Source: Secundilactobacillus kimchicus JCM 15530 (lineage in GTDB: Bacteria > Bacillota > Bacilli > Lactobacillales > Lactobacillaceae). From it: a stretch of 64,000 bases of DNA. The translations under genes were made by a program, and so were the position numbers. The stretch is from contig NZ_AZCX01000001.1 in NCBI RefSeq assembly GCF_001433995.1, positions 62,001 to 126,000 on the forward strand. Reading direction: 5' to 3'. Within the stretch, counting starts at the first letter, position 1, and the number at the start of each line of letters is the position of its first letter. Under the pieces are notes generated by a model. That model was not told the origin of the DNA and searched no databases. It saw only the letters and a list, made by a program, of their open reading frames with translations. This document shows positions 16,334-38,731 of this stretch, piece after piece.

Positions 16334-16368
16334 AGTATAGCATGACGCTCATGAAGTTATTATTAGGG
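16334..16368 (-). promoter_or_regulatory. Nitrate-regulon-type promoter of the flavodoxin-transporter operon
   Basis: On the minus strand: CCCTAATA (plus 16361-16368), 18 bp, then the extended -10 TGC-TATACT (hexamer at plus 16334-16339). There is no -35 consensus. Spacing and sequence are identical to the moeB promoter. Confidence 0.75.
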
Positions 16369-16378
16369 TTTTGACTAA

Positions 16379-16407
16379 TTCAATTTGGAATATTTCTCTG
16401 ACATAAT
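16379..16407 (+). promoter_or_regulatory. moaE-operon promoter with embedded TTGGAATATTT
   Basis: TTCAAT at 16379-16384, a 17-bp spacer and an extended -10 TGA-CATAAT ending at 16407. The element TTGGAATATTT (16385-16395) sits inside the spacer, so a bound protein would directly affect polymerase. Confidence 0.55.
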
Positions 16408-16441
16408 TAGCATGTAATCCAATCCAGATAGGTGGTCAAAC

Positions 16442-16843
16442 ATGTATTATCTGAAAATTTCAGAATCGCCAATCGACGTGCAGTCGCTTTATGAACGGCT
16501 TAAGGATGCCCAATATGGTGGCATTGTCACGTTTGTCGGAACGGTTCGCCAGTGGACCGGCGACGTGGAAACACAATTTATAGAATACAGTGCTTACCAA
16601 CCCATGGCTGAGCGACAGTTAGAAAAACTAGCGGCTCCGATTGAGGCGAAGGGGGCTCGTGTGGTGATCGCCCATCGTCTGGGCCGATTAGAACTAACAG
16701 ACGAGGCTGTATTTGTGGGGGTGGCAGCCGGCCATCGCGCAGAAGCGTTCAAGTGGTGTCAATATTTGATTGATACGTTGAAACAAGACGTTCCAATCTG
16801 GAAAAAAGAAACCGATACGGATGCGGTTCGGTGGGGGGAATGA
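16442..16843 (+). CDS. moaE: Molybdopterin synthase catalytic subunit
   Basis: A 133-residue MoaE. With MoaD it converts cyclic pyranopterin monophosphate to molybdopterin dithiolene. Family segments are GGIVTFVGTVR and VGVAAGHRAEAF, and the catalytic lysines lie in the C-terminal PIWKKE. It is the first gene of moaE-moaD-moaA-narK-cupin-MIP18-xre. Its stop is followed at once by the moaD site. The promoter is separate from, but divergent to, the flavodoxin promoter. Confidence 0.96.
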   Translation: MYYLKISESPIDVQSLYERLKDAQYGGIVTFVGTVRQWTGDVETQFIEYSAYQPMAERQLEKLAAPIEAKGARVVIAHRLGRLELTDEAVFVGVAAGHRAEAFKWCQYLIDTLKQDVPIWKKETDTDAVRWGE

Positions 16844-16845
16844 CA

Positions 16846-17091
16846 ATGCAACTTAAAGTAAAGCTGTTTGCGATGCTACGCGAACAGCTTGGCGAGACGG
16901 TCACCCTTAATTTGGGTGACAAAGCGACGGCCGAAGCGGTTAAGCCGGCATTAATCGAACGCTTTCCAGCTGCAAAGCCCATTTTAGAAACAGCTCGGCT
17001 TGCGATTAACCAGGATTTTGTATCAGATGAAGCGATGACATTGGCACCGGGTGATGAAGTGGCCCTAATCCCGCCGGTCAGTGGCGGATAG
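16846..17091 (+). CDS. moaD: Molybdopterin synthase sulfur carrier subunit
   Basis: An 81-residue ubiquitin-fold sulfur carrier ending in the required Gly-Gly (PVSGG), which MoeB adenylates and which is then thiocarboxylated. Possible starts are 16831 (GTG), 16840 and 16846. The last is chosen because the GGGGGG ribosome binding site overlapping the moaE end is 7 nt upstream. Confidence 0.93.
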
Positions 17092-17102
17092 GAGGAAGTT
17101 TA

Positions 17103-18101
17103 ATGGATAAATTGTATGATCAATACGATCGATTACACGATTATATACGCTTATCAATTACCGATCGGTGTAATTTACGTTGCGTGTATTGTATGCCCAA
17201 AGAGGGCCTGCCGTTTTTTCCAACCGACCGTGTTTTGTCTCAAGATGAAATTGTTTTGATGATTCAAAACTTCGCAGATATGGGGATCTCAAAGGTACGC
17301 ATCACTGGTGGGGAACCGCTGTTACGAACAGACGTTGTTGAAATTGTGCGGCGCATCAAAGCTATCGACGGGATCGAAGATGTTTCAATCACGACCAACG
17401 GGTTATTTTTAGGGAAATTGGCGGCCGATTTGAAAGCCGCTGGTCTTGATCGCCTCAACATTAGCTTGGATACTTTTAAACCAGATCGATATAAGAAAAT
17501 TACCCGCGGCGGTAATATTAAGCAGGTTTTGGACGGCATTGCCGTGGCTAGTCAATTGCATTTTAAAAAAATTAAACTCAATATTGTGTTGATCAAGGGG
17601 CAAAATGACGATGAGGTCTTAGATTTCTTGCGTTATACAAAGGACCATGATGTCAACGTTCGGTTCATCGAGTTTATGCCAATTGGCAACTCCTTGAAGG
17701 CCTGGCAGAAGGAATATGTGGGCTTGAAAAACGTGTTTGAGACAGCTGCTGAAAACGGGTTACATTACCAACCAATTGAGCTGCGAGGGAATGGACCATC
17801 GGATAACTATCAAATTGAGGGTTACAAAGGTAGTTTCGGATTAATTCATCCAATTAGTTCCAAGTTCTGCGAAACGTGTAACCGCCTCCGGATTACGGCG
17901 GATGGCTACGTCAAAGCCTGTTTATATTGGAATGAAGAAATCGATATCCGAAAGGCAATTCCTGATAAAGTAGCCTTTCGACAATTGATTCAAAAAGCGC
18001 TCGATAATAAGCCGTTGAACCATGAAATGGCAATGGCCGAAACGGATCGGATTATTGATAAAGCACCGACCTGGCGGCATATGAGTCAAATAGGAGGTTA
18101 G
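17103..18101 (+). CDS. moaA: GTP 3',8-cyclase (radical SAM)
   Basis: A 332-residue enzyme catalysing the first step of Moco synthesis from GTP. The N-terminal radical SAM cluster is Cys23-x3-Cys27-x2-Cys30 (CNLRCVYC). The C-terminal second cluster shows CETCNRLR with a further Cys in KACLYW. The C-terminal GG needed for activity is present (SQIGG). It requires Fe-S supply and a low-potential reductant. It lies between moaD and narK with 4-11 bp gaps. Confidence 0.97.
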
Positions 18102-18105
18102 AACA

Positions 18106-19296
18106 ATGTCAAATGCATCTGCAAAACCAACAAGCCGGTTTAACGCTTATATGGCACTGACCATGGCAACAATTGCTATGATTGTTTGTTTTATGGCTTG
18201 GTCCAACTTTGCACCACTCGCAGGTCAAGTTGCGACTATGTTTCATCTAAGCGTGTCTGAACGGACACTGCTGCTGGCAACCCCTGTCTTGCTTGGTTCT
18301 ATTTTACGAATTCCCATGGGCATTTTTAGTGATAAATACGGTGGCAAAAAGGTCTATATCTTATTAATGATTTTTATTTTAATTCCCTTATTTATGATTA
18401 CTAAGGTCCATACTTTTGGCATGTTGCTGGTGGCCGCCTTGTTTGTTGGAATGGCCGGAACGTCCTTTGCTGTTGGTGTTTCATACGCTAGTGCCTGGTT
18501 CCCAGCAGAAAAGCAAGGATTAGCCCTTGGAATCGTGGCTATGGGAAACATGGGGAATGCTGTCGCAGCCTTAACTTTACCGTGGATTTCCAAAAGCCAA
18601 GGGTTTAACATGGTGTACTATACGTTAATGATTCTCACGGTCATCATGATTGTTCTATTTGCGATTTTCTGCCGAGAAATGCCGGTCGATAAGAGCAAGA
18701 CGATGCTTGGCGCGCTATCAGTAGTCAAGGAAAGTAGTACTTGGTACTTGTCGTTATTCTATTTCTTAACTTTCGGCTTATTCGTCTCATTCAGTAACTT
18801 AACGCCGACCTTCTTAACGACGTTATTCGGTGTTGAGCAGATTCAGGCGGGATTGTACGCTGCTTTGTTTGGTTTCATCTGTACCATTATTCGTCCGGTA
18901 GGTGGGGCATTAGCCGATCGCTATCGGCCGATGAGTATGCTACAGTGGGTTTTCATTGGCATTGCAGCCTTTGGCCTTCTGATTACTGTGACATTTCATA
19001 ACCAACCGCTCTTTATTGTTGGGATTGTTGGCGTTGGTCTTGTTGCTGGATTTGGTAACGGGGTTATTTTTAAGATGGTGCCGTACGTTTCAAAAGGAAA
19101 CACTGGTGCGGTCACTGGGTTTGTTGGGGCAGTCGGTGGCCTAGGTGGCTTTTTCCCACCATTGGTCATCGGGTGGATCCAATCAGCAACGGGCAGCTAC
19201 CAATTGGGGATTATTTTACTGGTGGTGACGGCTATAATTTGCTGGTATGCCCTTTGGCGTCACTTTATTCATGGCGACGTTCACATTGTTCAATAA
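18106..19296 (+). CDS. narK: NarK-type nitrate/nitrite transporter (MFS)
   Basis: A 396-residue major facilitator with about 12 hydrophobic segments. The N-terminal half has the MFS loop-2-like motif GIFSDKYGGKKVY and the nitrate-signature glycine-rich FVGMAGTSFAVGVSYASAW. The C-terminal half has the partner GFGNGVIFKMVPY. These two glycine-rich motifs identify the NarK/NarU/NRT2 group. It probably takes up nitrate and exports nitrite for NarGHI. It is inside the moa operon, 4 bp after moaA. Confidence 0.93.
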   Translation: MSNASAKPTSRFNAYMALTMATIAMIVCFMAWSNFAPLAGQVATMFHLSVSERTLLLATPVLLGSILRIPMGIFSDKYGGKKVYILLMIFILIPLFMITKVHTFGMLLVAALFVGMAGTSFAVGVSYASAWFPAEKQGLALGIVAMGNMGNAVAALTLPWISKSQGFNMVYYTLMILTVIMIVLFAIFCREMPVDKSKTMLGALSVVKESSTWYLSLFYFLTFGLFVSFSNLTPTFLTTLFGVEQIQAGLYAALFGFICTIIRPVGGALADRYRPMSMLQWVFIGIAAFGLLITVTFHNQPLFIVGIVGVGLVAGFGNGVIFKMVPYVSKGNTGAVTGFVGAVGGLGGFFPPLVIGWIQSATGSYQLGIILLVVTAIICWYALWRHFIHGDVHIVQ

Positions 19297-19319
19297 TGAG
19301 TTGACAGCGGAGGTTTATT

Positions 19320-19619
19320 ATGGAAATATTGACAACAAATCCCGAAGTGACTTCGGGACCAGATCCAATGTTATCGCGGCGCCATCTGAACATTACCCAC
19401 CTTGTGGTGCCACAGGGCAGTGAAATCAAGCGTCATCGATCGCTGATGACGGTCACGGTCGTGGCAATTAAGGGTGAAATTGAATTTCATACGGATGATG
19501 ACGTGACTGTCTTGACCCCGGGGAAGGCAGTCGTGATGGCACCAGGCGAGTTTCATTGGCTACTCGCGCCGAACGACAATGGTGAAGTCATTGTCGTTCA
19601 TGGTGTGCTAGCCGAATAA
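19320..19619 (+). CDS. Small cupin-domain protein
   Basis: A 99-residue single-domain cupin (segments KRHRSLMTVTVVAIKGEIEFHTDD and PGKAVVMAPGEFHWLLAP) with several His and Glu that could bind a metal. No enzymatic function can be assigned. Its place between narK and a MIP18-like gene suggests a role in nitrate metabolism, perhaps sensing or handling a metal or oxyanion, but this is inference. Confidence 0.8.
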   Translation: MEILTTNPEVTSGPDPMLSRRHLNITHLVVPQGSEIKRHRSLMTVTVVAIKGEIEFHTDDDVTVLTPGKAVVMAPGEFHWLLAPNDNGEVIVVHGVLAE

Positions 19620-19646
19620 GTGATAGATGAATTGGAGGGTCGGTAG

Positions 19647-19979
19647 ATGGCAGAACAACTTGGCGAACGTTTTTCGCCCATTGAAGATAAGGTGATGACG
19701 TCCTTAGAAGACGTCATTGATCCAGAACTTGGGATTGATATGGTGAACTTAGGCTTAATCTACGACATCAACGTTGATGATGATGGGAACTGTATTGTGA
19801 CCATGACCCTGACAACCATGGGTTGCCCGCTTGGGAACCTATTATCTGATCAGATTACCAAGTCGGTATTAGCTGTTGAGGGCGTCACGAGTTGCGATAT
19901 TAATTTAGTCTGGGAACCGGCGTGGGATATGAGTATGATGAGTCGGTTTGCGAAAGTGGCTCTCGGAATTCACGGTTAA
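19647..19979 (+). CDS. MIP18/SufT-like (DUF59) Fe-S maturation protein
   Basis: A 110-residue DUF59 protein. The family core VIDPELGIDMVNLGLIYDI is clear, as is TTMGCPLGNLL with its conserved Cys. The family helps target Fe-S clusters to apoproteins (SufT, PaaD, CIA2). Next to Moco and nitrate reductase genes it may serve NarG/NarH or MoaA (inference). Confidence 0.88.
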   Translation: MAEQLGERFSPIEDKVMTSLEDVIDPELGIDMVNLGLIYDINVDDDGNCIVTMTLTTMGCPLGNLLSDQITKSVLAVEGVTSCDINLVWEPAWDMSMMSRFAKVALGIHG

Positions 19980-20007
19980 TCGGAATTGAAGGAATGGACT
20001 GATTGGA

Positions 20008-20904
20008 ATGGACATCAAAAAATTTGTCGATCGACGCAAAGCCCTACGACTTTCACAGGTTAAGTTGAGTGACGGGATTTGTACCCAAGCGACGCTCAGT
20101 AAATTTGAACGTAACGGTCACGTCCCGTCCTTGACGATCCTAGACCAACTGTGCAGTCGCTTAGGGTTGACCGTTGACGAGTTGAACCAAGTGGCCACGA
20201 CGAGTGTGACTCACATTCGGGAACAGCTAGATGCGATCGAAAGGGAACTGATGATGGAAAACTATCAGCAGGTCTTAGCGGCGTTAAATAAAATTGAGGC
20301 CACCGAAATTGATGCAATTCCATTGCAAATGCAGTTCTATTACTTGCGTGGTATTTTGAGGTCACTCATCAATCGAGAGCCAGATGAGGTTTTATTTGAT
20401 TTTTCCCGAATTTTAAATGAATTGGATGAAAATCATGAGACTATCTTTACCCAGCTCGCATATGTTGGATCTGGTGTGATGTACAGTCGCCGCAATCAGC
20501 TCGACCGAGCTGAATTTTACTTTAAAAAAACCCGAAAGTTTGTTAGGGCGACGCTGGCTGCGAACGCCTCACCTCAAAAGGGAAATACTTATTTGCGGTT
20601 GCTGACCATTCTTTTTTACACGGCGCAATATGACGCCGCAAAAAAAGATTATTCCAGTAGCAACCAACTCATCACCGATGGCATTGCCCTCTGTTCTGAG
20701 AAACACGTGACTTACTACTTACCGCGGCTTAAACTCCTGGCAGCTCAAAATGCCATTGAGTCTGGCGCGCAGGCCGAGCGAGTGACTCAATTGATGAACG
20801 AAGCACTTGCTTTTGCCCGCATTAACCAAAATGAAGTCGTGGAATTGCAGGTGGCTGCGTTGAGAAAACGTTTCGCGGCGATGATGAAGCAACAAAACGA
20901 TTAA
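20008..20904 (+). CDS. Rgg-like XRE regulator with TPR-type C-terminal domain
   Basis: A 298-residue protein. The N-terminal helix-turn-helix (about 8-62, KLSDGICTQATLSKFERNG) is of the XRE class. The remainder is all-helical with TPR-like repeats, as in Rgg/PlcR-type peptide-responsive regulators. It is the last gene of the moaE operon and ends at a bidirectional terminator. Its target is unknown. The inverted repeat at 23174-23194 is one candidate. Confidence 0.82.
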   Translation: MDIKKFVDRRKALRLSQVKLSDGICTQATLSKFERNGHVPSLTILDQLCSRLGLTVDELNQVATTSVTHIREQLDAIERELMMENYQQVLAALNKIEATEIDAIPLQMQFYYLRGILRSLINREPDEVLFDFSRILNELDENHETIFTQLAYVGSGVMYSRRNQLDRAEFYFKKTRKFVRATLAANASPQKGNTYLRLLTILFYTAQYDAAKKDYSSSNQLITDGIALCSEKHVTYYLPRLKLLAAQNAIESGAQAERVTQLMNEALAFARINQNEVVELQVAALRKRFAAMMKQQND

Positions 20905-20934
20905 CTGACAGGGATGGTCTTAGCCTAGTCAGTA

Positions 20935-20982
20935 AAAAAACGCTTGAAAAATCCTCGATATAGGGTTTTTCAAGCGTTTTTT
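20935..20982. terminator. Bidirectional terminator between the moa operon and the unknown operon
   Basis: A stem AAAAAACGCTTGAAAAA with CC pairs with GGTTTTTCAAGCGTTTTTT around an AU-rich loop. It separates convergent transcription units. Confidence 0.88.
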
Positions 20983-20985
20983 GGT

Positions 20986-21879
20986 TTATTCACCTTTGAC
21001 CTCGGCCATTATAGCGGTCAATAAGCCGGTTAATTGCGATTTGACCAGGTCATCTGACAATCCAAGACCGTCCAACTCAGCCTGGTTAATCAACTCAGCC
21101 GCTATTTCTAACGCTGGTTTTTCCCCTGACTGGAGGACGAGGGCTTGAGTAGTGATGAGTTGTTCGTTTGTTGGTTTGCTTGATTGATTAAACAGGCGGT
21201 GAAAATAGTCTGGCTCGGCTTCGACTGCGAAGAGGAGGGGGAGTGTGTAGTTACCGGTGAGTAGCTGCTGTTGAAACGACGCAACCTGGTTTGTCGCCTG
21301 CACATCATCGAGAATGGCTTGCGCAACGCCTAAGCTTTCGCCAATTGCCATTGTCAAATCGGTGACAGTAGCTGGTGTTTGATGCGTCCTAGTCGTTAGG
21401 AAACATGTCAGCGCAGCTAATTGGCCAAATCGAGATTTACTGTCATTCAGATAATCGGCGACCCGCATTCGTTGATTAAAGTTTAACGTGAGTCGGTCAA
21501 GGTTTCCCAGCCAAATTTTTTCGATATCGGCTTCGGCAGTCCGGCAGGCTGCTGGTGCCAACTGCGACTGATTTAATAGCTGATGAGCACGGCCAGTGAC
21601 CATTTGAGCGGCGTACGCATTGGCATGAGCCATTGCAACCTCGCTGACGGTTAAAGGCTTGGGACGAAACGTCGGTGGGTTGAGCGCTATCGCGAGATCA
21701 ATGAGTTCAGGAACCACCCCAAGACGGGCGTCAGTTGTTGCCGGATAAAGGTTAAACAGCCGCTGTCTTAATAAGCGCGCCGACGTTGCCGGAACCAGTC
21801 CGATGACCGCCTGCACGCGTTGCGGTAATTGGTTAATTTGGGTGGTTAGTTCAGCCATGAATGGCGATGTGTCAGTCAT
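20986..21879 (-). CDS. Degenerate trans-prenyl-diphosphate-synthase-like protein
   Basis: A 297-residue soluble helical protein. The C-terminal half keeps the order of polyprenyl synthases: SRFGQLAALTCFL, then GESLGVAQAILDDVQ (second Asp-rich region, only DD kept) and LLTGNYTLPLLFA (compare the family GDL..G..TLPLL). The first DDxxD motif is absent from the expected place. It is therefore either inactive, a regulatory subunit, or a partner resembling the small subunit of two-component heptaprenyl synthases. The start at 21879 follows CAGGAAG. It is third in the operon with two unknown genes, overlapping the preceding gene by 8 nt. A link to the menaquinone side chain is attractive but unproven. 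Confidence 0.6.
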   Translation of the reverse strand: MTDTSPFMAELTTQINQLPQRVQAVIGLVPATSARLLRQRLFNLYPATTDARLGVVPELIDLAIALNPPTFRPKPLTVSEVAMAHANAYAAQMVTGRAHQLLNQSQLAPAACRTAEADIEKIWLGNLDRLTLNFNQRMRVADYLNDSKSRFGQLAALTCFLTTRTHQTPATVTDLTMAIGESLGVAQAILDDVQATNQVASFQQQLLTGNYTLPLLFAVEAEPDYFHRLFNQSSKPTNEQLITTQALVLQSGEKPALEIAAELINQAELDGLGLSDDLVKSQLTGLLTAIMAEVKGE

Positions 21880-22873
21880 GGCTGACGCTTCCTGACACGT
21901 TAAATTTATCGATCTCAGCGGAGAATTGCTCAGCAACTGGAATAAAAATATCTGAGAAATAACGGGTCATATCCACTTTTTGCTTGGGATCTTCGAGCAC
22001 GTTTTGAGATCGCTGGAAGGCGTCATTTCGCATATTAATAATCATCAATTTCTTTTGATGCCGGAGGTGTTTGACCATTTTATCGCCCGCTGGATTTGCC
22101 TGGTATTTCTCAATAAAGTAGTACATGATTTCGTAGAAGGTGTTGTCAAGGACCCAAAACAGGGTGTTTCGTAAGACGCGATCGTTCATGACCTGAGCAA
22201 ATAATTGATCACCTATAATCTCATGGGTGCTAAAACCAGCAGCAGACATCACGATGTTTTGCACTTCATGCATGTCGGCCATAAAATGACTAAAGTGCTT
22301 TAAATCAGCATCTTTTAATTCGTAGCCCAACTGTGCTTTCCGGTGGGCAGAATCCATTGCCGAAAAATTGTTAAAATACTCTTGCTGAACATCTTGGCTA
22401 TCCGTGATGAGATCGCGTTCCAAATTTTGTAAAATAGCCAGGTTTTCGGCTAGGTAACTTTTGACGACCATCCAGATCGCCGTAAAATGATTGTTAAATT
22501 GGTCAAACAACTCATCGGTTGTCCCTACAATTTCTTTTTTGACCGCTGCATCGTCAGTATGAGCTGAAAATTGAACCACCATTGGGATACCAGTCGCCTG
22601 TGATGTGAGACCCGTGGTTTTACGACGCTCATTTTCATAGGCCTTTAGCTCATCAAGACTTAATAACCCCAATGGCATGACATTAATTTCGCCATTAGTG
22701 GTCATGATTTGCAGCGAAAAGGGCGTGTCAGCATGCTGATTCATGACAAATGATTTTAACGTTTCTAGTAATTTTGATCGGGTGCCTAAGTCATCCTCAG
22801 GATCCGCATAGAAACCGGACGTATATATAGCGACGTTATCATATTTAGTCGCTAATTGCTGTTTAATATCCAT
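21872..22873 (-). CDS. Conserved-looking protein of unknown function in the nitrate regulon
   Basis: A 333-residue soluble protein with no signal peptide or membrane segment. It is rich in acidic and helical segments (for example YFNNFSAMDSAHRKAQLGYEL and FWVLDNTFYEIMYYFIEKY) and has no cysteine. I do not recognise the family. The ATG at 22873 is chosen because AGGAGG is 5 nt upstream. It overlaps both neighbours (11 nt upstream, 8 nt downstream), so the three products are probably made together. Confidence 0.8.
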   Translation of the reverse strand: MDIKQQLATKYDNVAIYTSGFYADPEDDLGTRSKLLETLKSFVMNQHADTPFSLQIMTTNGEINVMPLGLLSLDELKAYENERRKTTGLTSQATGIPMVVQFSAHTDDAAVKKEIVGTTDELFDQFNNHFTAIWMVVKSYLAENLAILQNLERDLITDSQDVQQEYFNNFSAMDSAHRKAQLGYELKDADLKHFSHFMADMHEVQNIVMSAAGFSTHEIIGDQLFAQVMNDRVLRNTLFWVLDNTFYEIMYYFIEKYQANPAGDKMVKHLRHQKKLMIINMRNDAFQRSQNVLEDPKQKVDMTRYFSDIFIPVAEQFSAEIDKFNVSGSVSHD

Positions 22874-23156
22874 GATTTCCTCCTGATGTTTCAGTTGATG
22901 GACCACCGGCCAGCTCTCGCAGCTTCGCTTCTCCCAAGTCAGTCAACTTTGCTTGAGTGAGGTCGAGGCTCGCTAGCCGATTGGAATAATTGGCATCGAG
23001 GACCGCGTTTTCGAGATAGCCGCTAGTTGTTGCCAGTTCAGCCGTCTGGTAAAGCATTGAACCGGGATTAATCTGGCGGCCTTGGTGGAACCGGTGGGTC
23101 GCGACATCACGCAAAATCCCCAATAATTCTTCGTCTTGGCTAACATTATGTGCCAT
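22863..23156 (-). CDS. Small unknown protein, first gene of a three-gene operon
   Basis: A 97-residue protein preceded by GAGAGGAG and read from a promoter of the shared nitrate type. The C-terminal half (AKLTDLGEAKLRELAG) resembles the end of small winged-helix proteins, but the match is too weak for a call. It has no cysteines or membrane helix and ends in a flexible Gly/Ser/Thr tail. It overlaps the next gene by 11 nt. Confidence 0.75.
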   Translation of the reverse strand: MAHNVSQDEELLGILRDVATHRFHQGRQINPGSMLYQTAELATTSGYLENAVLDANYSNRLASLDLTQAKLTDLGEAKLRELAGGPSTETSGGNHGY

Positions 23157-23173
23157 GGTGATGCTCCTCTCTA

Positions 23174-23194
23174 AAACTGGATTATCACCAGTTT
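23174..23194. repeat. Perfect inverted repeat over the start site of the unknown operon
   Basis: AAACTGG-N7-CCAGTTT. It overlaps the -10 (23190-23195) and the expected transcription start, 18 bp before the first ATG. This is the classic position of a repressor operator. Confidence 0.6.
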
Positions 23195-23224
23195 AACAGG
23201 GGGGCCAACAAAGAACTATTGGGG
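23190..23224 (-). promoter_or_regulatory. Nitrate-regulon-type promoter of the unknown three-gene operon
   Basis: On the minus strand: CCCCAATA (plus 23217-23224), 18 bp, then TGT-TAAACT (hexamer plus 23190-23195). The layout is the same as at the moeB and flavodoxin promoters. Confidence 0.7.
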
Positions 23225-23251
23225 ATTTTACTATATTCAACTGATTACTTG

Positions 23252-23905: not shown

Positions 23906-23919
23906 ATTTGCGACTCCCT

Positions 23920-24948: not shown

Positions 24949-24971
24949 AAAGTCGGCCTCCCTTCACCAGA

Positions 24972-25406: not shown

Positions 25407-25460
25407 TTCTGTTTCCTCCCTAATAGTACCATTATTCAATAAGTTTGAAACCGTTTTTTT

Positions 25461-25484
25461 ATATAAAAAGGGGACTTTTTATAT
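25461..25484. repeat. AT-rich inverted repeat upstream of nreA
   Basis: ATATAAAAAG-GGGA-CTTTTTATAT is a perfect 10-bp stem with a 4-nt loop. There is no T-tract in the nreA direction, so it is not a normal terminator. It may be an operator or an RNA element. Confidence 0.5.
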
Positions 25485-25488
25485 TGAT

Positions 25489-25499
25489 TTGGAATATTT
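25489..25499. promoter_or_regulatory. TTGGAATATTT element upstream of nreABC
   Basis: An exact TTGGAATATTT on the plus strand, about 60 bp upstream of a candidate extended -10 (TGG-TACTAT, plus 25423-25428) for nreA. Confidence 0.45.
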
Positions 25500-25502
25500 T
25501 GG

Positions 25503-26319: not shown

Positions 26320-26331
26320 GAAAACTCCCTC

Positions 26332-28500: not shown

Positions 28501-28513
28501 TAAACCACTCCTT

Positions 28514-28981: not shown

Positions 28982-29997
28982 GGTTGAATGACCTCCTGAT
29001 TAAAGGCTGTCTTGATAGTCTGATACAGCCGGGTGGCCGCCTCAAGGTCGCTGACGCCGTAAAGTAGTAGCTTTTGGTTTTTAAATAGGCTGATAGTGTA
29101 CCCGTCCCAGTTAAAGGACAGAAAGGTCTTGAACCGTTTGTACGGTACTTTTTGATTTTCCAAATGTTGCTCGATCAGCGGCAGACTCGGTAATAAAGCA
29201 TGGGTCACTTGGTAGGTCTGGGTCCCACAAAGGACCTGAAGCGTATCGCTTGTGTCGGTTGGAACTGGCCAAGTCAAACGGTGACACATGGCACATTGGT
29301 CAGCTTTTTGCACCCGAAATGTTTGCTGAGTCATTGTCCAGTTATCAAAGGTATAGAGCCGATCAAATTGAACGCTGGCGCGATCAACCAGGTAGTGCAA
29401 CGCAAGTGACACTTGAAGCGCTGAGACGAGCGGCACCAATGCCGTGTTGACGCCGATTAGGTCGCAGTCGGTTTGTTTTAGTTCAGCTAAGTTTGGGTAG
29501 AGGCAATTTAGACAAGCGTGATGAGTTGGTGAAACGGGCATGACACTACCGAAGGTACCTGCACAACTGGCAAAAATGTAATCAAAATGGCCAGCCAATG
29601 CGGCCTGGTTAATGGTGTCACGAGCCGTGTAATTATCCAAACAATCAAGAACTAAAGTGGCCGGATGGTCTTCAAAAAACGACCGGTCAATTGATTCAGG
29701 GACGACCTGGATGTGCGCACTATGATTAATTTCTAATAGGTGACGCTTAGCGGCTGTGACTTTGAGTTCGCCGACGTCAGCCTCGGTAAAGAGGGCTTGA
29801 CGTTGCAAGTTAGTCAGCGTGACCACGTCAGGGTCAACGAGAATCAAGCCTGCCACGCCAGCTCGAATGAGTTGGGCGGCTGCGTAGGTTCCAAGGGCCC
29901 CGACACCCGCAATGATGACCGTTGCTTGTTCAATGCGCCGTTGACCCGGTTCGCCAATCACCTTAACCCGCTTTTGGCGGTCAAATCGATCGGGCAT
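28978..29997 (-). CDS. moeB: MoeB/ThiF-family adenylyltransferase
   Basis: A 339-residue E1-like enzyme that activates the C-terminus of MoaD. The nucleotide motif is GVGALGTYAA, and the adenylate site has DPDVVTLTNLQRQALF and LDCLDNYTAR. Zinc is held by CLNC and CAMC. A C-terminal extension of about 90 residues follows the zinc site and does not look like a rhodanese domain. It is the first gene of moeB-moaB-moeA-mobB-moaC-mobA-(small)-nreABC, facing away from narG, with GAGGAGG as ribosome binding site. Confidence 0.93.
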   Translation of the reverse strand: MPDRFDRQKRVKVIGEPGQRRIEQATVIIAGVGALGTYAAAQLIRAGVAGLILVDPDVVTLTNLQRQALFTEADVGELKVTAAKRHLLEINHSAHIQVVPESIDRSFFEDHPATLVLDCLDNYTARDTINQAALAGHFDYIFASCAGTFGSVMPVSPTHHACLNCLYPNLAELKQTDCDLIGVNTALVPLVSALQVSLALHYLVDRASVQFDRLYTFDNWTMTQQTFRVQKADQCAMCHRLTWPVPTDTSDTLQVLCGTQTYQVTHALLPSLPLIEQHLENQKVPYKRFKTFLSFNWDGYTISLFKNQKLLLYGVSDLEAATRLYQTIKTAFNQEVIQP

Positions 29998-30031
29998 TTT
30001 CCGATTCCTCCTCTAAAAAATATAGGTAATT

Positions 30032-30076
30032 CCCTAGTCGAAGTATAGCAAACGCCATGCTAACGTAGTATTAGGG
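30032..30076. promoter_or_regulatory. Overlapping divergent nitrate-regulon promoters of narGHJI and the Moco operon
   Basis: Plus strand (narG): CCCTAGTC at 30032-30039, 18 bp, then TGC-TAACGT (hexamer 30061-30066). Minus strand (moeB): CCCTAATA (plus 30069-30076), 18 bp, then TGC-TATACT (hexamer plus 30042-30047). Each -10 lies inside the spacer of the other promoter, making a 45-bp imperfect palindrome. Confidence 0.75.
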
Positions 30077-30155
30077 AAATGGCTTACTTTTATTGAGATA
30101 CCAGTTCTCGGCGAAAGTGACACACCATTGTAAGCGAATAAGGAGGTCTTAGAAA

Positions 30156-33100
30156 GTGAAAAAATCCCGCTTTTTCAAGAGCGTTGAAAAGTTCAACGGT
30201 ACCTTTACCCAGCTGGAAGAAAACAGTCGGCGTTGGGAAAAGCTTTACAAACAACGTTGGGCTCATGATAAAGTTGTGCGGACAACTCACGGGGTCAATT
30301 GTACCGGTTCTTGTAGTTGGAACGTCTACGTGAAACAAGGCATCATTACGTGGGAACACCAAGCGACTGACTATCCGGAATGTGGCGCAAATATGCCTGG
30401 CTACGAACCGCGGGGATGTCCCAGAGGGGCAAGTTTTTCGTGGTATGAATACAGTCCAGTGCGCATCAAGTACCCTTATATCCGTGGCAAGTTGTGGCAA
30501 CTTTGGGATGCCGCCAAAAAACAGTATGAAAGTCCCGTTGAAGCATGGGCCAGCATTGTTGAGGATCCCGAAAAGGCTGCTATTTACAAGTCGGCTCGGG
30601 GTCATGGGGGAATGGTGCGCGTTCATCGCGCGGAGGCCCTGGAACTGATTTCGGCCATGCTGTTGTACACCATTAAGACGTACGGTCCTGACCGGTTGGC
30701 CGGATTTACCCCGATTCCAGCGATGTCCATGATGAGTTATGCGTCCGGGGCCCGCTTCATTTCGTTACTCGGGGGTGAAATGCTCTCGTTTTACGACTGG
30801 TACGCGGATCTGCCACCGGCCTCACCGCAAATTTGGGGTGAGCAAACAGATGTGCCGGAATCGGCTGATTGGTACAACAGTCAATACATTATGATGTGGG
30901 GGTCAAACGTGCCGCTGACACGAACGCCAGATGCCCATTTCATGACTGAAGCGCGGTATCACGGCGCTAAAATTGTCGCAGTTAGTCCCGATTATGCGGA
31001 AAATGTGAAGTTTGCTGATAATTGGTTAGCTCCCAAGCCGGGGACTGACGCCGCATTAGCTCAGGGTATGACCCACGTGATCTTGAACGAATTTTACCAA
31101 GAGCGCCACGAGCAGCAGTTCATCGATTACGTCAAGCAATATACGGATTTACCGTTTTTAATCACGTTGCAACCAAGTGATGCCAATCCAGAAGATTTCG
31201 CATCCGGCCGATTTGTTCGAATTACCGATATTGCGGCGGATGCTGTTGAAAATGGCGAATGGAAACCGGTTTTATTTGATGGCAATCAAGGAAAGTTTGT
31301 CGTTCCAAACGGGACTATCGGTCAACGTTGGGAAGACGGCCAACCGTGGAATTTGGAAATGAAGGATCAAAACGGGGCTGAGATTGACCCTGATCTGTCG
31401 ATTGATGCTGACGTCGATGTCACCATTGATTTTCCAACCTTTGATAATCAGGGGAATGGGGTTTTAAAGCGCCATGTACCAGCTAAAAAGATGACGTTCA
31501 TGGATGGCAGTGAACACTATGTCACCACTGTTTTTGACCTCATGATGAGTCAGTATGGCATCAAGCGTGAGGCGGATGATTCGTTGGCAGCAACCGGTTA
31601 TGATGATGTTCAAAGTTGTTACACACCGGCCTGGCAGGAAACGGTTACCGGGGTTAAAGCAAGCTTGGTTGTTCAGGTTGCCCGGGAATTTGCTCAAAAT
31701 GCGCTGGACACTGGTGGGAAGACCATGGTGATCATGGGGGCCGGCATCAACCACTGGTTTAATAGTGATATGACCTATCGTTCAATTATCAACAACCTAA
31801 TGTTGTGCGGTTGTGAAGGCGTTTCAGGTGGCGGTTGGGCGCACTATGTCGGTCAGGAAAAACTGCGGCCTCAAGAGGGGTGGAGTACGATTGCGTTTGC
31901 AAACGACTGGCAAAAAGGTGGCGCCCGGCAACAAAACGGGACTTCCTTCTTCTACTTTGCGTCGGACCAATGGAAGTATGACGAATTGGACAACAAGGCC
32001 CTTAAGTCACCCGTCACAAAAACGAAGCACGTTTACGATCACGCCGCCGATTACAACCAATTAGCCATTCGATTAGGATGGTTGCCAAGTTATCCACAAT
32101 TTGACCGGAGTTCGTTGTCCTTTACTGACAAGTATCACACAACGGATCTTGGCGAAATTTCAAAGCACGTCGTGGCAGAATTAAAAGCCGGTGACTTGCA
32201 CTTTGCTGCGGAAAACCCGGATGCAAATCAAAACCAACCAAAAGGGCTATTCATTTGGCGGTCCAACCTCTTTACGAGTTCTGGCAAGGGTCAAGAGTAC
32301 TTCATGAAGCACTTGTTAGGTGCTGAAAACGGGTTGTTGGCTAAAACGAACGACCGGCAAAAGCCTGAGGAAATGATTTGGAATGATGAAACCATTACCG
32401 GAAAGTTAGACCTTGTCATTGATATGGACTTTCGGATGGTGGCAACCCCGATGTATTCCGACGTGATTTTGCCGGCAGCGACTTGGTACGAAAAGGAAGA
32501 CCTCTCTTCAACGGATATGCATCCGTACATTCATCCGTTTAATGCAGCGGTTTCGCCAATGTGGGAATCGAAGAGTGATTGGCAGCAGTTCAAAGCCTTA
32601 GCCAAAACGGTATCTAATATGGCAAAGAAATACTACGCTGAACCTCAATACGATCTGAAAACGCAACCATTAGGTCATGACTCAAAGGCTGAAATTGCCC
32701 AACCAATGGGGGTTATCAAGGACTGGAAGAAGGGCGAAATTGACTGTACTCCTGGTCAGACGATGCCGTCGCTATCCTTGATTAAACGCGACTATACACA
32801 AGTCTATGACAAGTTTATTGCGCTTGGACCAAACGCCCGGGGTAAAGTGGGTGGCGAAGGTTACACTTACGATGTGTCGACTGAATATGACGAACTCAAG
32901 GATATTTTGGGCACCTTTGACCGCGGTCTTAACGAAGGCTGTCCAAAACTTGATGTGGACAAAAACGTTTGTGACGCCATCCTACATTTGTCGAGCACGT
33001 CTAACGGGCATGTGGCCGCAAAGGCTTGGCAAAACGCTGAAACGATAACCGGCCAGAAACTGCAAGACATCAGTGCCGGACGGCGAGAAGATCAAATGAG

Positions 33101-33824
33101 TTTTAAGAGCATTACGGTTCAACCGGCCGAAGCGATTCCAACGCCAATCTTTACATCGGCGAAGCATGATGGCGACCGGTATTCGCCATTTACCGTGAAC
33201 ATCGAGCGCAAAGTGCCATTCCGCACCTTAACGGGGCGGCAACAATTCTACTTGGATCACGAAATCTTTCAAGAGTATGGCGAAACGCTGGCCAACTACA
33301 AGCCAACGTTGCCGCCACAAGTCATGGGGCCCGCTGATGTTGCCATTACACCGGACAGCAACGAATTAACGCTTCGCTACATGACACCTCACGGAAAGTG
33401 GAATATTCATACGATGTACTACGATAACCTTGAAATGCTGACGTTATTTAGAGGGGGACCAAACGTTTGGCTCAGCCCGGTCGATGCTGATAAGGCAGGG
33501 ATTAAAGACAACGATTGGTTGGAAATATACAACCGAAACGGGGTTGTCACAGCGCGGGCGGTTGTTTCTCACCGGATGCCTGAAGGCTCAATGTACATGT
33601 ATCATGCCCAGGATATGCAGATTCAAGAACCACTGTCGACCATCACTGGGAACCGTGGAGGCTCGCACAACGCACCGACTCAGATTCACGTGAAGCCGAC
33701 TCAGATGGTTGGCGGGTACGGTCAACTAAGTTACGCATTTAACTACTACGGTCCGATTGGTAATCAACGGGACCTTTATGTCAACGTTCGGAAGTTAAAG
33801 AAGGTGAACTGGAATGAAGATTAA
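30156..33824 (+). CDS. narG: Respiratory nitrate reductase alpha subunit NarG
   Basis: A 1222-residue Mo-bisMGD catalytic subunit that reduces nitrate to nitrite on the inner face of the membrane. The FS0 [4Fe-4S] ligands are intact: His45, Cys49, Cys53 and Cys88. The molybdenum-ligating Asp is Asp238 in ESADWYNS. There is no Tat-like signal beyond the remnant RRWEKLY, as in membrane-anchored cytoplasmic NarG. The GTG start follows AGGAGG by 9 nt. The end overlaps narH by 11 nt. The promoter belongs to the shared CCCYAATA class. Length is close to the E. coli subunit. Confidence 0.98.
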   Translation: MKKSRFFKSVEKFNGTFTQLEENSRRWEKLYKQRWAHDKVVRTTHGVNCTGSCSWNVYVKQGIITWEHQATDYPECGANMPGYEPRGCPRGASFSWYEYSPVRIKYPYIRGKLWQLWDAAKKQYESPVEAWASIVEDPEKAAIYKSARGHGGMVRVHRAEALELISAMLLYTIKTYGPDRLAGFTPIPAMSMMSYASGARFISLLGGEMLSFYDWYADLPPASPQIWGEQTDVPESADWYNSQYIMMWGSNVPLTRTPDAHFMTEARYHGAKIVAVSPDYAENVKFADNWLAPKPGTDAALAQGMTHVILNEFYQERHEQQFIDYVKQYTDLPFLITLQPSDANPEDFASGRFVRITDIAADAVENGEWKPVLFDGNQGKFVVPNGTIGQRWEDGQPWNLEMKDQNGAEIDPDLSIDADVDVTIDFPTFDNQGNGVLKRHVPAKKMTFMDGSEHYVTTVFDLMMSQYGIKREADDSLAATGYDDVQSCYTPAWQETVTGVKASLVVQVAREFAQNALDTGGKTMVIMGAGINHWFNSDMTYRSIINNLMLCGCEGVSGGGWAHYVGQEKLRPQEGWSTIAFANDWQKGGARQQNGTSFFYFASDQWKYDELDNKALKSPVTKTKHVYDHAADYNQLAIRLGWLPSYPQFDRSSLSFTDKYHTTDLGEISKHVVAELKAGDLHFAAENPDANQNQPKGLFIWRSNLFTSSGKGQEYFMKHLLGAENGLLAKTNDRQKPEEMIWNDETITGKLDLVIDMDFRMVATPMYSDVILPAATWYEKEDLSSTDMHPYIHPFNAAVSPMWESKSDWQQFKALAKTVSNMAKKYYAEPQYDLKTQPLGHDSKAEIAQPMGVIKDWKKGEIDCTPGQTMPSLSLIKRDYTQVYDKFIALGPNARGKVGGEGYTYDVSTEYDELKDILGTFDRGLNEGCPKLDVDKNVCDAILHLSSTSNGHVAAKAWQNAETITGQKLQDISAGRREDQMSFKSITVQPAEAIPTPIFTSAKHDGDRYSPFTVNIERKVPFRTLTGRQQFYLDHEIFQEYGETLANYKPTLPPQVMGPADVAITPDSNELTLRYMTPHGKWNIHTMYYDNLEMLTLFRGGPNVWLSPVDADKAGIKDNDWLEIYNRNGVVTARAVVSHRMPEGSMYMYHAQDMQIQEPLSTITGNRGGSHNAPTQIHVKPTQMVGGYGQLSYAFNYYGPIGNQRDLYVNVRKLKKVNWNED

Positions 33825-35373
33825 AGCTCAGATTGGGATGGTGTTAAACCTCGACAAGTGCATCGGCTGTCATACCTGTTCCGTGACGTGCAAAAATACG
33901 TGGACAAATCGGCCGGGTGCCGAATACATGTGGTTTAACAACGTTGAAACAAAACCGGGGGTTGGGTATCCTAAGCGCTGGGAAGACGAAGGCCACTACA
34001 AGGGCGGCTGGGAACTCAATAGCAAGGGGAAACTTCAATTACGGGCTGGTAACAAATTAAATAAGGTTGGTTTGGGTAAGATTTTCTATAATCCAGACAT
34101 GCCTGAATTAGACGATTATTATGAGCCATGGACGTATGATTACCAAACGTTATTTGGCCCCGAAAAAAAGCACCAGCCGGTTGCTCGGGCAAAGTCTCAA
34201 ATCACCGGTCAGACAATGGACCTCAAAACGGGGCCTAACTGGGATGATGATTTGGCTGGGTCGCCTGAATATTTCAAGCAAGACCCTAATATGGCTAAAA
34301 TTGAAACCGACATTAAAGCAAACTTTGAGCAGGCCTTTATGATGTATTTACCGCGGTTGTGTGAGCATTGCTTGAACGCCCCGTGTGTGGCCTCGTGTCC
34401 GTCTGGTGCCATGTACAAGCGGGACGAAGATGGCATTGTGTTGGTTGATCAAGAACGCTGCCGCGGGTGGCGGTTCTGTATGACGGGTTGCCCTTATAAG
34501 AAGGTCTACTTTAACTGGAAGACCAATAAGGCGGAAAAATGTACGTTCTGTTATCCGAGAATTGAAGAAGGGGAACCGACTGTTTGTTCTGAAACGTGTG
34601 TTGGCCGAATTCGCTACATTGGTGCGATGCTTTACGATGCCGATCGGGTGGAAGCGGCCGCTGAAACACCGGAAGAAGATAAGCTTTATGAAGCCCAACT
34701 AGATTTATTCTTGGACCCTAACGATCCTGAAGTGATTGAACAAGCACTTGCGGATGGCGTCAATGAAGAAATGATTGAAGCTGCCCAACGTTCGCCAATT
34801 TACCGGATGGCCGTGGAGGAGAAAATTGCCTTTCCACTCCATCCAGAATACCGGACAATGCCGATGGTTTGGTACATTCCACCACTGTCACCAATCATGA
34901 ACTACTTTGAAGGTCGTGATTCAATCAAGGATCCGGAAATGATTTTCCCAGGGATTGATGAAATGCGGATTCCAGTAGACTATTTGGCCAGTTTATTGAC
35001 GGGTGGCAACCTGGAGGCCATTAAGAATGCTTTGTACAAATTAGCGATGATGCGGTTGTACATGCGGGCCCAGACAAGCGGGAAAGACTTTGACGTTGAA
35101 AAGCTTGATCGCGTCAATTTGACCGAGGGAACAGCCACTTCATTGTACCGGTTATTGGCCATCGCCAAGTATGAAGATCGGTTTGTCATTCCTAAGAGCC
35201 ATAAAGAACAGGTTGAAGATGCTCAGAGTGAACAGGGTGGTCTAGGCTATGACGAGTGTGAAGGATGTTCATTAGCGCCGCAACACGGTAGCATGTTTAA
35301 AAAAGCTGAAGCCGGCGAAAGTACTAACCAAATTTACGCTGAGAGCTTCTATGGGGGGATTTGGCGTGATTAA
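33814..35373 (+). CDS. narH: Respiratory nitrate reductase beta subunit NarH
   Basis: A 519-residue electron-transfer subunit with four Fe-S clusters. The N-terminal set is Cys16, Cys19, Cys22 and Cys26 (CIGCHTCSVTC). The further groups are CEHCLNAPCVASC, CRGWRFCMTGC and CTFCYP with CSETC. The Trp in CRGW marks the [3Fe-4S] cluster, as in E. coli NarH. It passes electrons from NarI hemes to NarG and overlaps narG by 11 nt and narJ by 8 nt. Confidence 0.98.
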   Translation: MKIKAQIGMVLNLDKCIGCHTCSVTCKNTWTNRPGAEYMWFNNVETKPGVGYPKRWEDEGHYKGGWELNSKGKLQLRAGNKLNKVGLGKIFYNPDMPELDDYYEPWTYDYQTLFGPEKKHQPVARAKSQITGQTMDLKTGPNWDDDLAGSPEYFKQDPNMAKIETDIKANFEQAFMMYLPRLCEHCLNAPCVASCPSGAMYKRDEDGIVLVDQERCRGWRFCMTGCPYKKVYFNWKTNKAEKCTFCYPRIEEGEPTVCSETCVGRIRYIGAMLYDADRVEAAAETPEEDKLYEAQLDLFLDPNDPEVIEQALADGVNEEMIEAAQRSPIYRMAVEEKIAFPLHPEYRTMPMVWYIPPLSPIMNYFEGRDSIKDPEMIFPGIDEMRIPVDYLASLLTGGNLEAIKNALYKLAMMRLYMRAQTSGKDFDVEKLDRVNLTEGTATSLYRLLAIAKYEDRFVIPKSHKEQVEDAQSEQGGLGYDECEGCSLAPQHGSMFKKAEAGESTNQIYAESFYGGIWRD

Positions 35374-35938
35374 TTTTAAGCGGTTAGACCAGCTCACTGA
35401 CGCCTTTGTGACCCTTTCTCGGCTAATTGATTATCCCGATGCGGAAACGTTCAGTCGGGCGACCTACGATGAGTTAGTGGCCCATTACCCACAAACCACT
35501 CAAAAGGACCGTTTGCTGGCGTTGGTGAAACAACTGGGCGACGCTGATCCGTTGGCCCAGCAAACGCATTATGCATCGTTGTTTGAAATGAATAAACGCT
35601 ACACGCTCTATATGAGTTACTACAAAATGGCTGATTCGCGAGAACGAGGGACGATCTTGGCGAAGTTGAAAATGCTCTACGAAATGTTTGGCGTGTCGAT
35701 CGAGGGCAATGAATTAGCTGATTTTTTGCCGATGGTTCTGGAATTCTTGGCCTATGGCAACTTTACCGACGATCCACGGCAACAAGACCTTAAACTGGCG
35801 TTTCAAGTGATCGAAGATGGGACCTATACACTACTCGAACACGCCAAAGCGGAACTGGATGATCCGTACTTCCAACTCATTCAAGTCATTCGTGCGGAGC
35901 TCAGAACATGCGTGGAATCGGAGGTGAAAGTGTCATGA
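35366..35938 (+). CDS. narJ: Nitrate reductase assembly chaperone NarJ
   Basis: A 190-residue helical TorD/NarJ-family chaperone (YPDAETFSRATYDEL and the conserved EGNELADFLPMVLEFLAY) that helps Moco insertion and membrane attachment of NarGH. The GTG at 35366 is preferred: GGGGGG is 7 nt upstream, while the ATG at 35351 is poorly placed. It ends as ATGA with narI. Confidence 0.93.
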   Translation: MINFKRLDQLTDAFVTLSRLIDYPDAETFSRATYDELVAHYPQTTQKDRLLALVKQLGDADPLAQQTHYASLFEMNKRYTLYMSYYKMADSRERGTILAKLKMLYEMFGVSIEGNELADFLPMVLEFLAYGNFTDDPRQQDLKLAFQVIEDGTYTLLEHAKAELDDPYFQLIQVIRAELRTCVESEVKVS

Positions 35939-36624
35939 GTCATTTTGGGTCCATTTTATTGTGGGTGATTTACCCCTATGCGATGATGCTCTCGTTTGTC
36001 TTTGGGACAATTGTTCGATTTGGCTGGTTTCGTGCCGGAATCACTGCGGTTTCTAGCGAAATGCTTGAAAAACGTAAGTTAATGATTGGTAGTTTGTTAT
36101 TCCATGTTGGGATTATCTTAGCGTTTTTTGGCCACGTCCTTGGAATTTTGATTCCGAAAACGTGGACCGAACTATTTGGAATTTCAAACGAACTGTATCA
36201 CTTGGTCGGCTCCCTAATGATGGGATCAGCTGCCGGATTGATGGCGTTAGCCGGGATGTTTATTCTCACTTATCGTCGCTTTACCAACGCGCGCGTATTT
36301 CTAACGAGCTCATGGAGCGATTTGGTGATTGACGTTGCCTTGCTCATTACGATTATTTTGGGGTTGGCTTCGACGTTATCAAGTCCCTTTCAGGGGAATT
36401 TTGATTATCGTGAAACGTTATCAGTGTGGGCGCGATCATTGTTCTATCTCCATCCACAATGGCAATTGATGGCCAATGTTCCATGGATTTACAAGATTCA
36501 TGTGATCTGTGGGTTTGCGATTTTTGGGTTCTTCCCATACACCCGATTAGTGCACGCTTTAACACTGCCGTGGCAGTATATTTTCCGGCGGTTCATCGTC
36601 TATCGTCGGCGCCCCCGAGTCTAA
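35935..36624 (+). CDS. narI: Nitrate reductase gamma subunit NarI (cytochrome b)
   Basis: A 229-residue membrane subunit with five hydrophobic helices that takes electrons from menaquinol. All four heme-b ligands have counterparts: His57, His67, His189 and His207, with almost the same spacing as in E. coli (56, 66, 187, 205). Lactobacilli cannot make heme, so activity should depend on heme uptake. The ATG at 35935 follows GGAGGTG. The operon ends here at a strong terminator. Confidence 0.96.
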   Translation: MSHFGSILLWVIYPYAMMLSFVFGTIVRFGWFRAGITAVSSEMLEKRKLMIGSLLFHVGIILAFFGHVLGILIPKTWTELFGISNELYHLVGSLMMGSAAGLMALAGMFILTYRRFTNARVFLTSSWSDLVIDVALLITIILGLASTLSSPFQGNFDYRETLSVWARSLFYLHPQWQLMANVPWIYKIHVICGFAIFGFFPYTRLVHALTLPWQYIFRRFIVYRRRPRV

Positions 36625-36648
36625 GGGTTGAAGAAATGGTATCAAACT

Positions 36649-36690
36649 AAAATGAGGCGCCGGTTGAGTAGTCAACCGGCGCCTCATTTT
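36649..36690. terminator. Terminator of narGHJI
   Basis: A perfect 19-bp stem, AAAATGAGGCGCCGGTTGA with its complement, around GTAG. The outer A/T pairs give TTTT at the end. Confidence 0.88.
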
Positions 36691-36742
36691 GAGTTGTGAT
36701 GAAATTGACCGTTTTTGATTACGGTAGATTTTTCAGTCCTTT

Positions 36743-36777
36743 CCCCAATACTAATTTGGCGAGAGGATGGTTAGACT
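36743..36777 (+). promoter_or_regulatory. Nitrate-regulon-type promoter of the unknown two-gene operon
   Basis: CCCCAATA at 36743-36750, then exactly 21 bp, then TAGACT at 36772-36777. The TG of the extended -10 is shifted by 1 bp (TGGT before TAGACT). The spacing matches the four other promoters. Confidence 0.65.
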
Positions 36778-37772: not shown

Positions 37773-37781
37773 GAGGAAACT

Positions 37782-38695: not shown

Positions 38696-38731
38696 GGTCA
38701 AAACCTCGATTTCGAAAGGATGCATAATTTT

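Follow-up and report, generated by a model that had tools for sequence, protein, structure and literature searches.

At least six promoters in a 64-kb window of the genome of Secundilactobacillus kimchicus JCM 15530 (positions 62,001 to 126,000 of contig NZ_AZCX01000001.1; "the window" denotes this whole stretch of 64,000 nucleotides) were found to combine a 14-bp palindrome, TAGG-N6-CCTA, with a -10 hexamer at a spacing of 21 bp. It is highly likely that these sites are activator-dependent promoters of an NreABC-type regulon, in which the response regulator NreC would bind the palindrome. The findings are best explained by a new regulon of a known kind, with a known element, new targets and a wider branch comprising iron and iron-sulfur (Fe-S) genes. 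The palindromes and -10 elements of the main cluster were as follows.

30023-30036, plus strand: NreC-type palindrome TAGGTAATTCCCTA of narGHJI, 8/8 half-site matches, conserved in relatives
30061-30066, plus strand: extended -10 of narG, TGC-TAACGT, 21 bp after the palindrome
30072-30085, minus strand: NreC-type palindrome AAGCCATTTCCCTA of the moeB operon, conserved, overlapping the putative narG start
30042-30047, minus strand: -10 of moeB, TGC-TATACT, within the narG spacer
16364-16377, both directions: palindrome TAGTCAAAACCCTA / TAGGGTTTTGACTA, common to the divergent flavodoxin and moaE operons
16334-16339, minus strand: -10 of the flavodoxin operon, TGC-TATACT
16402-16407, plus strand: TGA-CATAAT, -10 of the sixth promoter (moaE operon), with 21 bp between it and the palindrome
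23220-23233, minus strand: palindrome TAGTAAAATCCCCA of a three-gene operon
23190-23195, minus strand: -10 of the three-gene operon, TGT-TAAACT
36734-36747, plus strand: palindrome CAGTCCTTTCCCCA of a two-gene operon, with a weak distal half
36772-36777, plus strand: -10 of the two-gene operon, TAGACT

The first-pass annotation of this DNA had described five promoters of one architecture, CCCYARTN followed by exactly 21 bp and a -10, with an AG dinucleotide before the CCC, the look of an inverted repeat and no -35. When the window was searched for CCCYARTN-N21-TANNNT, the pattern was found at exactly those five places (16334-16368, 23190-23224 and 30042-30076 on the minus strand; 30032-30066 and 36743-36777 on the plus strand), against 0.31 expected occurrences, and five were reached in 0/100 dinucleotide shuffles. 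The AG element was present at all five, but it was uninformative alone, since 13 copies were counted in the window against 9.7 expected and 16/100 shuffles were equally high, that is, not above chance. AG and CCC proved to be the two halves of the single palindrome. Half-site matches amounted to 8/8 at narG and 5-7/8 at the other promoters, and the promoter-proximal half, CCCTA or CCCCA, was retained at 5/5 named sites. The palindrome centre lay 31.5 bp ahead of the first -10 base, which would place it at about -43.5 relative to the start if the -10 spans -12 to -7. With a symmetric palindrome matrix alone, only narG was prominent in the window (20.7 bits), and 4 hits of at least 11 bits were obtained against 2.05 expected; therefore, the significance stems from the palindrome and the -10 together. 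The best TTGACA match at the sites was 2-3/6, comparable to random positions, in agreement with the claimed absence of a -35. The count of five was too low, because the moaE promoter (16364-16407, plus strand) had been overlooked, as had a weaker site at 5577-5590 between feoA and sufC.

Two intergenic regions carried a double arrangement. Between the flavodoxin and moaE operons, the single palindrome at 16364-16377 was located between back-to-back promoters at equal spacing both ways. Between narG and moeB (30023-30085), two facing palindromes lay 49 bp apart with both -10s between them. Transcription of narG would start at about 30073, which is inside the moeB palindrome, and that of moeB at about 30035, inside the palindrome of narG; because of this interlocking, the two promoters probably compete.

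A sequence-only model, designated R1, was trained on 36 aligned promoters from other species, none of them from the window, belonging to the narG, moeB, 97-aa, 321-aa, moaC and moaE-divergent classes (the 97-aa and 321-aa proteins are products of the three-gene and two-gene operons, respectively). A motif model and genome scan had been named as a check in the first-pass annotation. Applied to the whole 2.59-Mb genome, R1 returned the five named sites as its top five hits (E 2.4e-6, 4.6e-6, 0.005, 0.008 and 0.016). The sixth hit (L147, E 0.04) was regarded as chance, since visual inspection showed overlap with a terminator-like hairpin, and about 300 bp separated the hit from the start of the following gene on that strand. 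A weak hit at 25417 was likewise discarded as, by eye, a ribosome-binding-site-like stretch of nreA.

The distribution of the motif was studied in 201 Lactobacillaceae genomes, with R1 hits accepted at E ≤0.02 and NreC called at E ≤1e-50. The motif occurred in 24/31 NreC-positive genomes versus 3/170 NreC-negative ones (Fisher p about 1e-21, relatedness ignored), the latter three being weak hits in about the number expected at E 0.02. The narG gene was present in 21/201 genomes. Motif hits were obtained in 20/20 genomes with both NreC and narG (several of them training loci), in 4/11 with NreC only and in 0/1 with narG only (G041). Thus, the motif tracks NreC rather than narG.

Conservation upstream of narG was then determined. 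Eighty narG loci were fetched and 56 (L021-L076) were used; L077-L100 (23 actinobacteria and Shouchella L079) were excluded. A palindrome with at least 7/8 matches was found within 320 bp upstream of narG in 39/56 loci: 32/38 with NreC and 7/18 without, the latter comprising five lactobacilli, whose fetched stretch may end short of NreC, and two Listeria. Random 320-bp stretches of the same loci gave 116/2240, and the enrichment at nar genes of relatives, another check that had been named, was thereby observed. A -10-like hexamer, [TCA]A...T, was located at 21 bp in 36/39 palindrome loci, at 22 bp in two and at 20 bp in one. The 21-bp set takes in Staphylococcus agnetis (L073), Sporosarcina (L074) and eight Paenibacillus loci. 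Because the same palindrome precedes narG in Staphylococcus, Sporosarcina and Paenibacillus, it is very probably the known NreC box. Six NreC-bearing loci lacked a palindrome of at least 7/8, five of which were Loigolactobacillus loci with CGGGCAATTCCCTA or GGGGTGTTTCCCTA at 21 bp.

Other targets were counted in loci with an orthologue of at least 40% identity using a permissive site pattern. A facing site was found in 22/24 moeB loci, with a spacing of 22 bp in 16, 21 bp in five and 20 bp in one, and none in two; the spacing of exactly 21 bp, which held within the window, is therefore 20-22 bp at moeB orthologues elsewhere. The 321-aa operon had a site in 7/9 loci, all at 21 bp, and the 97-aa operon in 8/17 (four at 21 bp, four at 20 bp). 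Among 20 moaE loci from other genomes, an NreC-type palindrome was present in 15, and the -10-like hexamer on its moaE side was spaced 21 bp from it in 12 loci and 20 bp in three. Ten of these 15 loci (Secundilactobacillus, Loigolactobacillus) also had a -10-like hexamer in the opposite direction, 20-22 bp from the same palindrome; the divergent gene was identified in G004 alone, where it is a flavodoxin gene, as in the window.

NreC of the window was 45% identical to that of L073 (S. agnetis), and D54 and the KTVE-HK core were invariant across seven aligned rows, so that the recognition-helix core is common to the window and staphylococcal proteins. The first-pass annotation had named NreC as the natural candidate binder, and this proposal is well supported by the genome co-occurrence, the recurrence at narG in NreABC-bearing Bacilli and the helix-turn-helix (HTH) core; perfect boxes beside NreC paralogues, described below, are further evidence in its favour. 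As for its origin, NreC of the window was 88% identical to that of Levilactobacillus koreensis versus 76-77% to those of other Secundilactobacillus; this closer similarity suggests that the cluster was exchanged between genera.

The genes concerned are listed below.

23252-23905, minus strand: nreC, NarL/FixJ-type response regulator, proposed activator
23920-24948, minus strand: nreB, histidine kinase whose N-terminal region carries one CxxC
24972-25439, minus strand: nreA, candidate nitrate receptor with a GAF domain (Pfam match under the curated cut-off)
25503-29997, minus strand: moeB-moaB-moeA-mobB-moaC-mobA-109aa, molybdenum-cofactor genes, upstream of and on the same strand as nreABC
30156-36624, plus strand: narGHJI, nitrate reductase operon
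14033-16285, minus strand: operon for a flavodoxin (start set at 16285) and a BtuC/FecCD-type ABC transporter
16442-20904, plus strand: moaE-moaD-moaA-narK-cupin-Fe-S assembly (DUF59)-XRE regulator operon
20986-23156, minus strand: three-gene operon for 97-aa and 344-aa uncharacterised proteins and a weakly polyprenyl-synthase-like protein
36807-38192, plus strand: two-gene operon for 321-aa and 136-aa uncharacterised proteins

In the proposed mechanism, NreB would phosphorylate NreC at low oxygen, and NreA would render this phosphorylation dependent on nitrate. Phosphorylated NreC (NreC-P) would bind the 14-bp palindrome, centred about 43.5 bp upstream of the start, and recruit RNA polymerase to the -10, often extended (TGN-TANNNT), in the absence of a -35. 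The predicted targets are narGHJI, the moeB operon, the two uncharacterised operons and, through one common palindrome, the divergent flavodoxin-transporter and moaE-narK operons. The moeB transcript, carrying cofactor genes, would run on into nreABC, which would result in positive feedback on the regulator. A promoter and terminator scan of 20900-30200 was near chance (16 promoter-like elements versus 12.9 expected; 15 terminator-like versus 11.4), so that an internal promoter ahead of nreA is possible.

The sensor proteins were also compared. The candidate nreA gene lies beside nreBC (Pfam GAF_2, E 1.1e-5, under the curated cut-off), and Pfam detected kinase domains but no PAS domain in NreB of the window. 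NreB of lactobacillar nar loci had one CxxC near the N-terminus in 27/27 cases, the window included. Two CxxC motifs were present in 10/12 Bacillales NreBs, the remaining two being shortened by the start-codon choice made here. Five NreBs of the narG-less type had one CxxC but 3-5 cysteines within the first 120 residues, and of four NreBs from other families of the order, three had one CxxC and one had two. Judging from these proteins, the staphylococcal NreB ligand set (two CxxC, [4Fe-4S] cluster) is not conserved in lactobacilli, although the lactobacillar system likely works like NreABC.

The weaker site overlooked earlier lies in an iron and Fe-S region of the window, where feoA (open reading frame 5248-5574) immediately precedes feoB (3255-5246) and sufC begins at 5773.

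5577-5590, both directions: weaker palindrome GGGGGAATTGCCTA between the divergent feoA and sufC, candidate further site (5.7 bits, E 1.8)
5615-5620, plus strand: TATAAT towards sufCDSUB, exactly 21 bp from this palindrome
5547-5552, minus strand: weak -10-like CACAAT towards feoA, 21 bp from this palindrome

At Secundilactobacillus sufC loci with a recognisable site (6-8/8 matches, by eye), TATAAT towards sufC was found at 21 bp in 9/10 and at 22 bp in G008. In four genomes with NreC and no narG (G008, G125, G151 and G161), the R1 hit was close to nreC, in the gap separating feoA-feoB from the divergent suf operon; nreB adjoined nreC in the first three, none was found in the G161 stretch, and nreA was not found in the fetched stretches of the four. 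The sufC loci of 30 NreC-positive genomes were then inspected (narG-less G212 was left out). Eight of these genomes, all narG-less, had an 8/8 palindrome from which TGN-TANNNT is spaced 21 bp on the feoA side (G008, G112, G125, G142, G151, G161, G167 and G190); this amounts to 8/10 narG-less genomes, and the site was not found in G007 and G058. A ninth 8/8 palindrome was located at sufC of G152 without adjoining feoA. Thirty genomes without NreC yielded 25 sufC loci, with no 8/8 and two 7/8 palindromes. Six of the eight perfect loci were re-read (L172-L176, L183), and a -10-like hexamer was also found 22 bp on towards sufC.

Additional NreC-like proteins (48-53% identity) are encoded in Secundilactobacillus beside an XRE regulator and a two-gene operon, with no NreB hit adjoining. 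The operon products have 4Fe-4S and dihydropyrimidine-dehydrogenase or dihydroorotate-dehydrogenase domains. A perfect palindrome between the XRE regulator and this Fe-S dehydrogenase operon was present in 4/6 paralogue loci (G005, G007, G012 and G013; not G003 and G004); on the regulator side TATAAT lies 21 bp away, and on the operon side the hexamer, at 21-22 bp, is weaker. The boxes have the following positions; at the like loci L179 and L244, none was found.

L178, 10575-10588: perfect box beside an NreC paralogue
L241, 4924-4937: the same
L242, 4683-4696: the same
L243, 4351-4364: the same

In G002, a perfect palindrome was located between feoB and an Fe-S assembly gene, beside a 61% NreC with NreB; none was found at the similar locus of G006. 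The same search gave no further sites in 15 re-read stretches (about 226 kb). The box beside iron-uptake and Fe-S genes of narG-less relatives suggests a wider role of the NreC control system. Hence the name "nitrate regulon" given in the first-pass annotation is too narrow for feoA/sufC in narG-less relatives and for the other Fe-S genes beside paralogues.

Several other explanations of the shared architecture were considered. One alternative binder is the XRE/Rgg-like regulator encoded at 20008-20904 in the moaE operon, which many relatives encode next to nreC. Its relatives were present in 26/27 genomes tested and adjoined NreC also in narG-less and paralogue loci; however, G009, G011 and G014, which have the XRE regulator without an NreC orthologue, gave no motif hits or one weak hit (G011), and tblastn found no match to it in the fetched box-bearing Staphylococcus and Paenibacillus narG loci. 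It is therefore not favoured, frequent neighbour though it is, and its being the binder is very unlikely. Equally, it is hardly probable that NreC binds but mainly represses or blocks at some promoters (moeB, feoA, sufC) by overlap with the opposing start. Such action would fit the interlocked narG/moeB geometry and the perfect TATAAT of sufC, which may require less help; on the other hand, relative to the -10 the site is placed just as it is before narG, and staphylococcal NreC has been described as an activator.

The CCCTAAT block with its fixed spacing could also be read as a core promoter element of an alternative sigma factor instead of an activator site, to which the near-constant 21-bp spacing and the missing -35 would correspond. 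This is highly improbable, since the block is half of a palindrome of which one copy serves two directions (flavodoxin and moaE), the spacing ranges over 20-22 bp and the motif tracks NreC. Although all five named sites lie within 21 kb, a chance likeness, or the spread of a single promoter segment by copying within the cluster, has a negligible probability: no shuffle reached five, the spacers between palindrome and -10 differ among promoters, and the sites are conserved separately at orthologous genes (narG, moeB, moaE and the 321-aa operon).

Some points weigh against the proposed regulon. No narG site was found in L026, which has NreC, and 9/17 loci with a 97-aa orthologue were without a site. 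Several promoters have a weak distal half-site, and in five orthologous two-gene operons this half reads GCGC. G010 retains the feoA/sufC site with TATAAT at 21 bp and has no NreC orthologue, which either speaks against NreC control there or reflects recent loss of NreC. NreB has no second CxxC, so the oxygen-sensing step may differ from the staphylococcal one. The R1 training promoters had been chosen with the 21-bp rule, so the model is no independent test of spacing, and several narG-positive genomes also supplied training loci. Scoring covered 150/438 first-look candidates in the 2.59-Mb genome and 31 per genome in the multi-genome search.

It is also possible, though doubtful, that lactobacillar NreBC is in origin an iron/Fe-S switch, in which NreB, with its single CxxC, reports the Fe-S or redox state and to which the nitrate module was added later or from which it was lost. 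NreC and its paralogues would then drive feoAB, sufCDSUB and the Fe-S dehydrogenase operon, and the nitrate module would consist of NreA, nar and the molybdenum cofactor. On the NreC tree, nar labels need three changes and suf labels need three changes. If true, this reading would account for the proximity of nar, suf, feo and nre genes in the window and for the use of one box by all of them.

The NreABC-type regulon was compared with known systems. Work by Fedtke in 2002 and by Schlag in 2008 is said to have given the NreC consensus as TAGGGN4CCCTA. The PerR box is AT-rich. Escherichia coli NarL/NarX likewise employs a NarL-type response regulator at nar promoters, with another sensor, another box and FNR as a co-activator. 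As in Staphylococcus carnosus and Staphylococcus aureus, an NreC orthologue with a conserved HTH core was found, nreABC lies beside nar genes, and the palindrome has the same spacing before narG in S. agnetis. Unlike in staphylococci, the lactobacillar targets include cofactor, flavodoxin-transporter and uncharacterised operons and probably nreABC as well, NreB carries a single CxxC instead of two, and there are feoA/sufC and Fe-S dehydrogenase branches, with NreA not found in the fetched narG-less clusters. According to the available text of PMC8139620 and PMC5694512, nar, nir and narT of staphylococci have a GC-rich palindrome to which phosphorylated NreC binds; the palindrome had thus been reported already, and "previously unmarked", as the first-pass annotation put it, applies to the lactobacillar targets, among the matches listed. 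An account of NreC control in lactobacilli was not found in the literature, again among the matches listed. The available part of PMC2883068 also describes S. aureus narG and nirR as lacking a SigA or SigB consensus.

In Bacillus licheniformis, NreBC acts on sqr/pdo, and NreC-P binds there to a site whose prediction was based on the staphylococcal one (available text of PMC9918477, whose title refers to sensors of sulfide and of sulfane sulfur). According to the same text, this system is without NreA, like the narG-less lactobacillar branch, but it answers to sulfur species and its targets are sulfur-oxidation genes, not iron/Fe-S genes. The PerR regulon of lactic acid bacteria was predicted, in the part of PMC3616900 available, to include feoAB and sufCDSEB, the same kind of targets as in the narG-less NreC branch, but its regulator belongs to the Fur family; NreC, narG and nitrate have no occurrences in the main text of that article.

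The uncharacterised proteins of the cluster (344, 97, 321 and 136 aa) matched no Pfam or NCBIfam family at cut-off, and no PDB sequence match was found for the 344-aa and 321-aa proteins. The conserved 344-aa protein (21872-22873) gave a confident model (pLDDT 87, pTM 0.81), for which Foldseek found nothing at E ≤0.001; the VIA-align matches were middling ones to helical bundles, the best with Z 9.4 (dynamin-like stalks). The 321-aa model was weaker (pLDDT 78.5, pTM 0.53), and its structure search was without a match at E 0.001. After the nar cluster, enoyl-CoA-hydratase and AMP-binding genes were observed at 38720-41002, which we take to be menB/menE-like, and the stretch 38330-41002 presumably also contains a thioesterase-like gene. 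Together with the polyprenyl-synthase-like gene, the menB/menE-like genes suggest a link to quinone supply.

The substrate of the FecCD-type transporter may be guessed to be molybdate. FecCD-type transporter genes were observed between narI and moaE, or directly after narK, in L033-L037, L044, L049, L068 and L075, that is, in Agrilactobacillus yilanensis, Companilactobacillus and one Lactobacillus metagenome-assembled genome. This position hints at a link to the cofactor genes, perhaps molybdate uptake.

For nitrate-respiring lactobacilli, the regulon would provide a testable control circuit in which a single regulator controls the enzyme together with its cofactor, and probably also the genes of the regulator. 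Two uncharacterised operons would be added to it and may matter in nitrate respiration. The sensing chemistry of lactobacillar NreB would not be simply transferable from Staphylococcus. The results also suggest that, in species without nitrate reductase, NreC may govern iron uptake, Fe-S assembly and an Fe-S enzyme.

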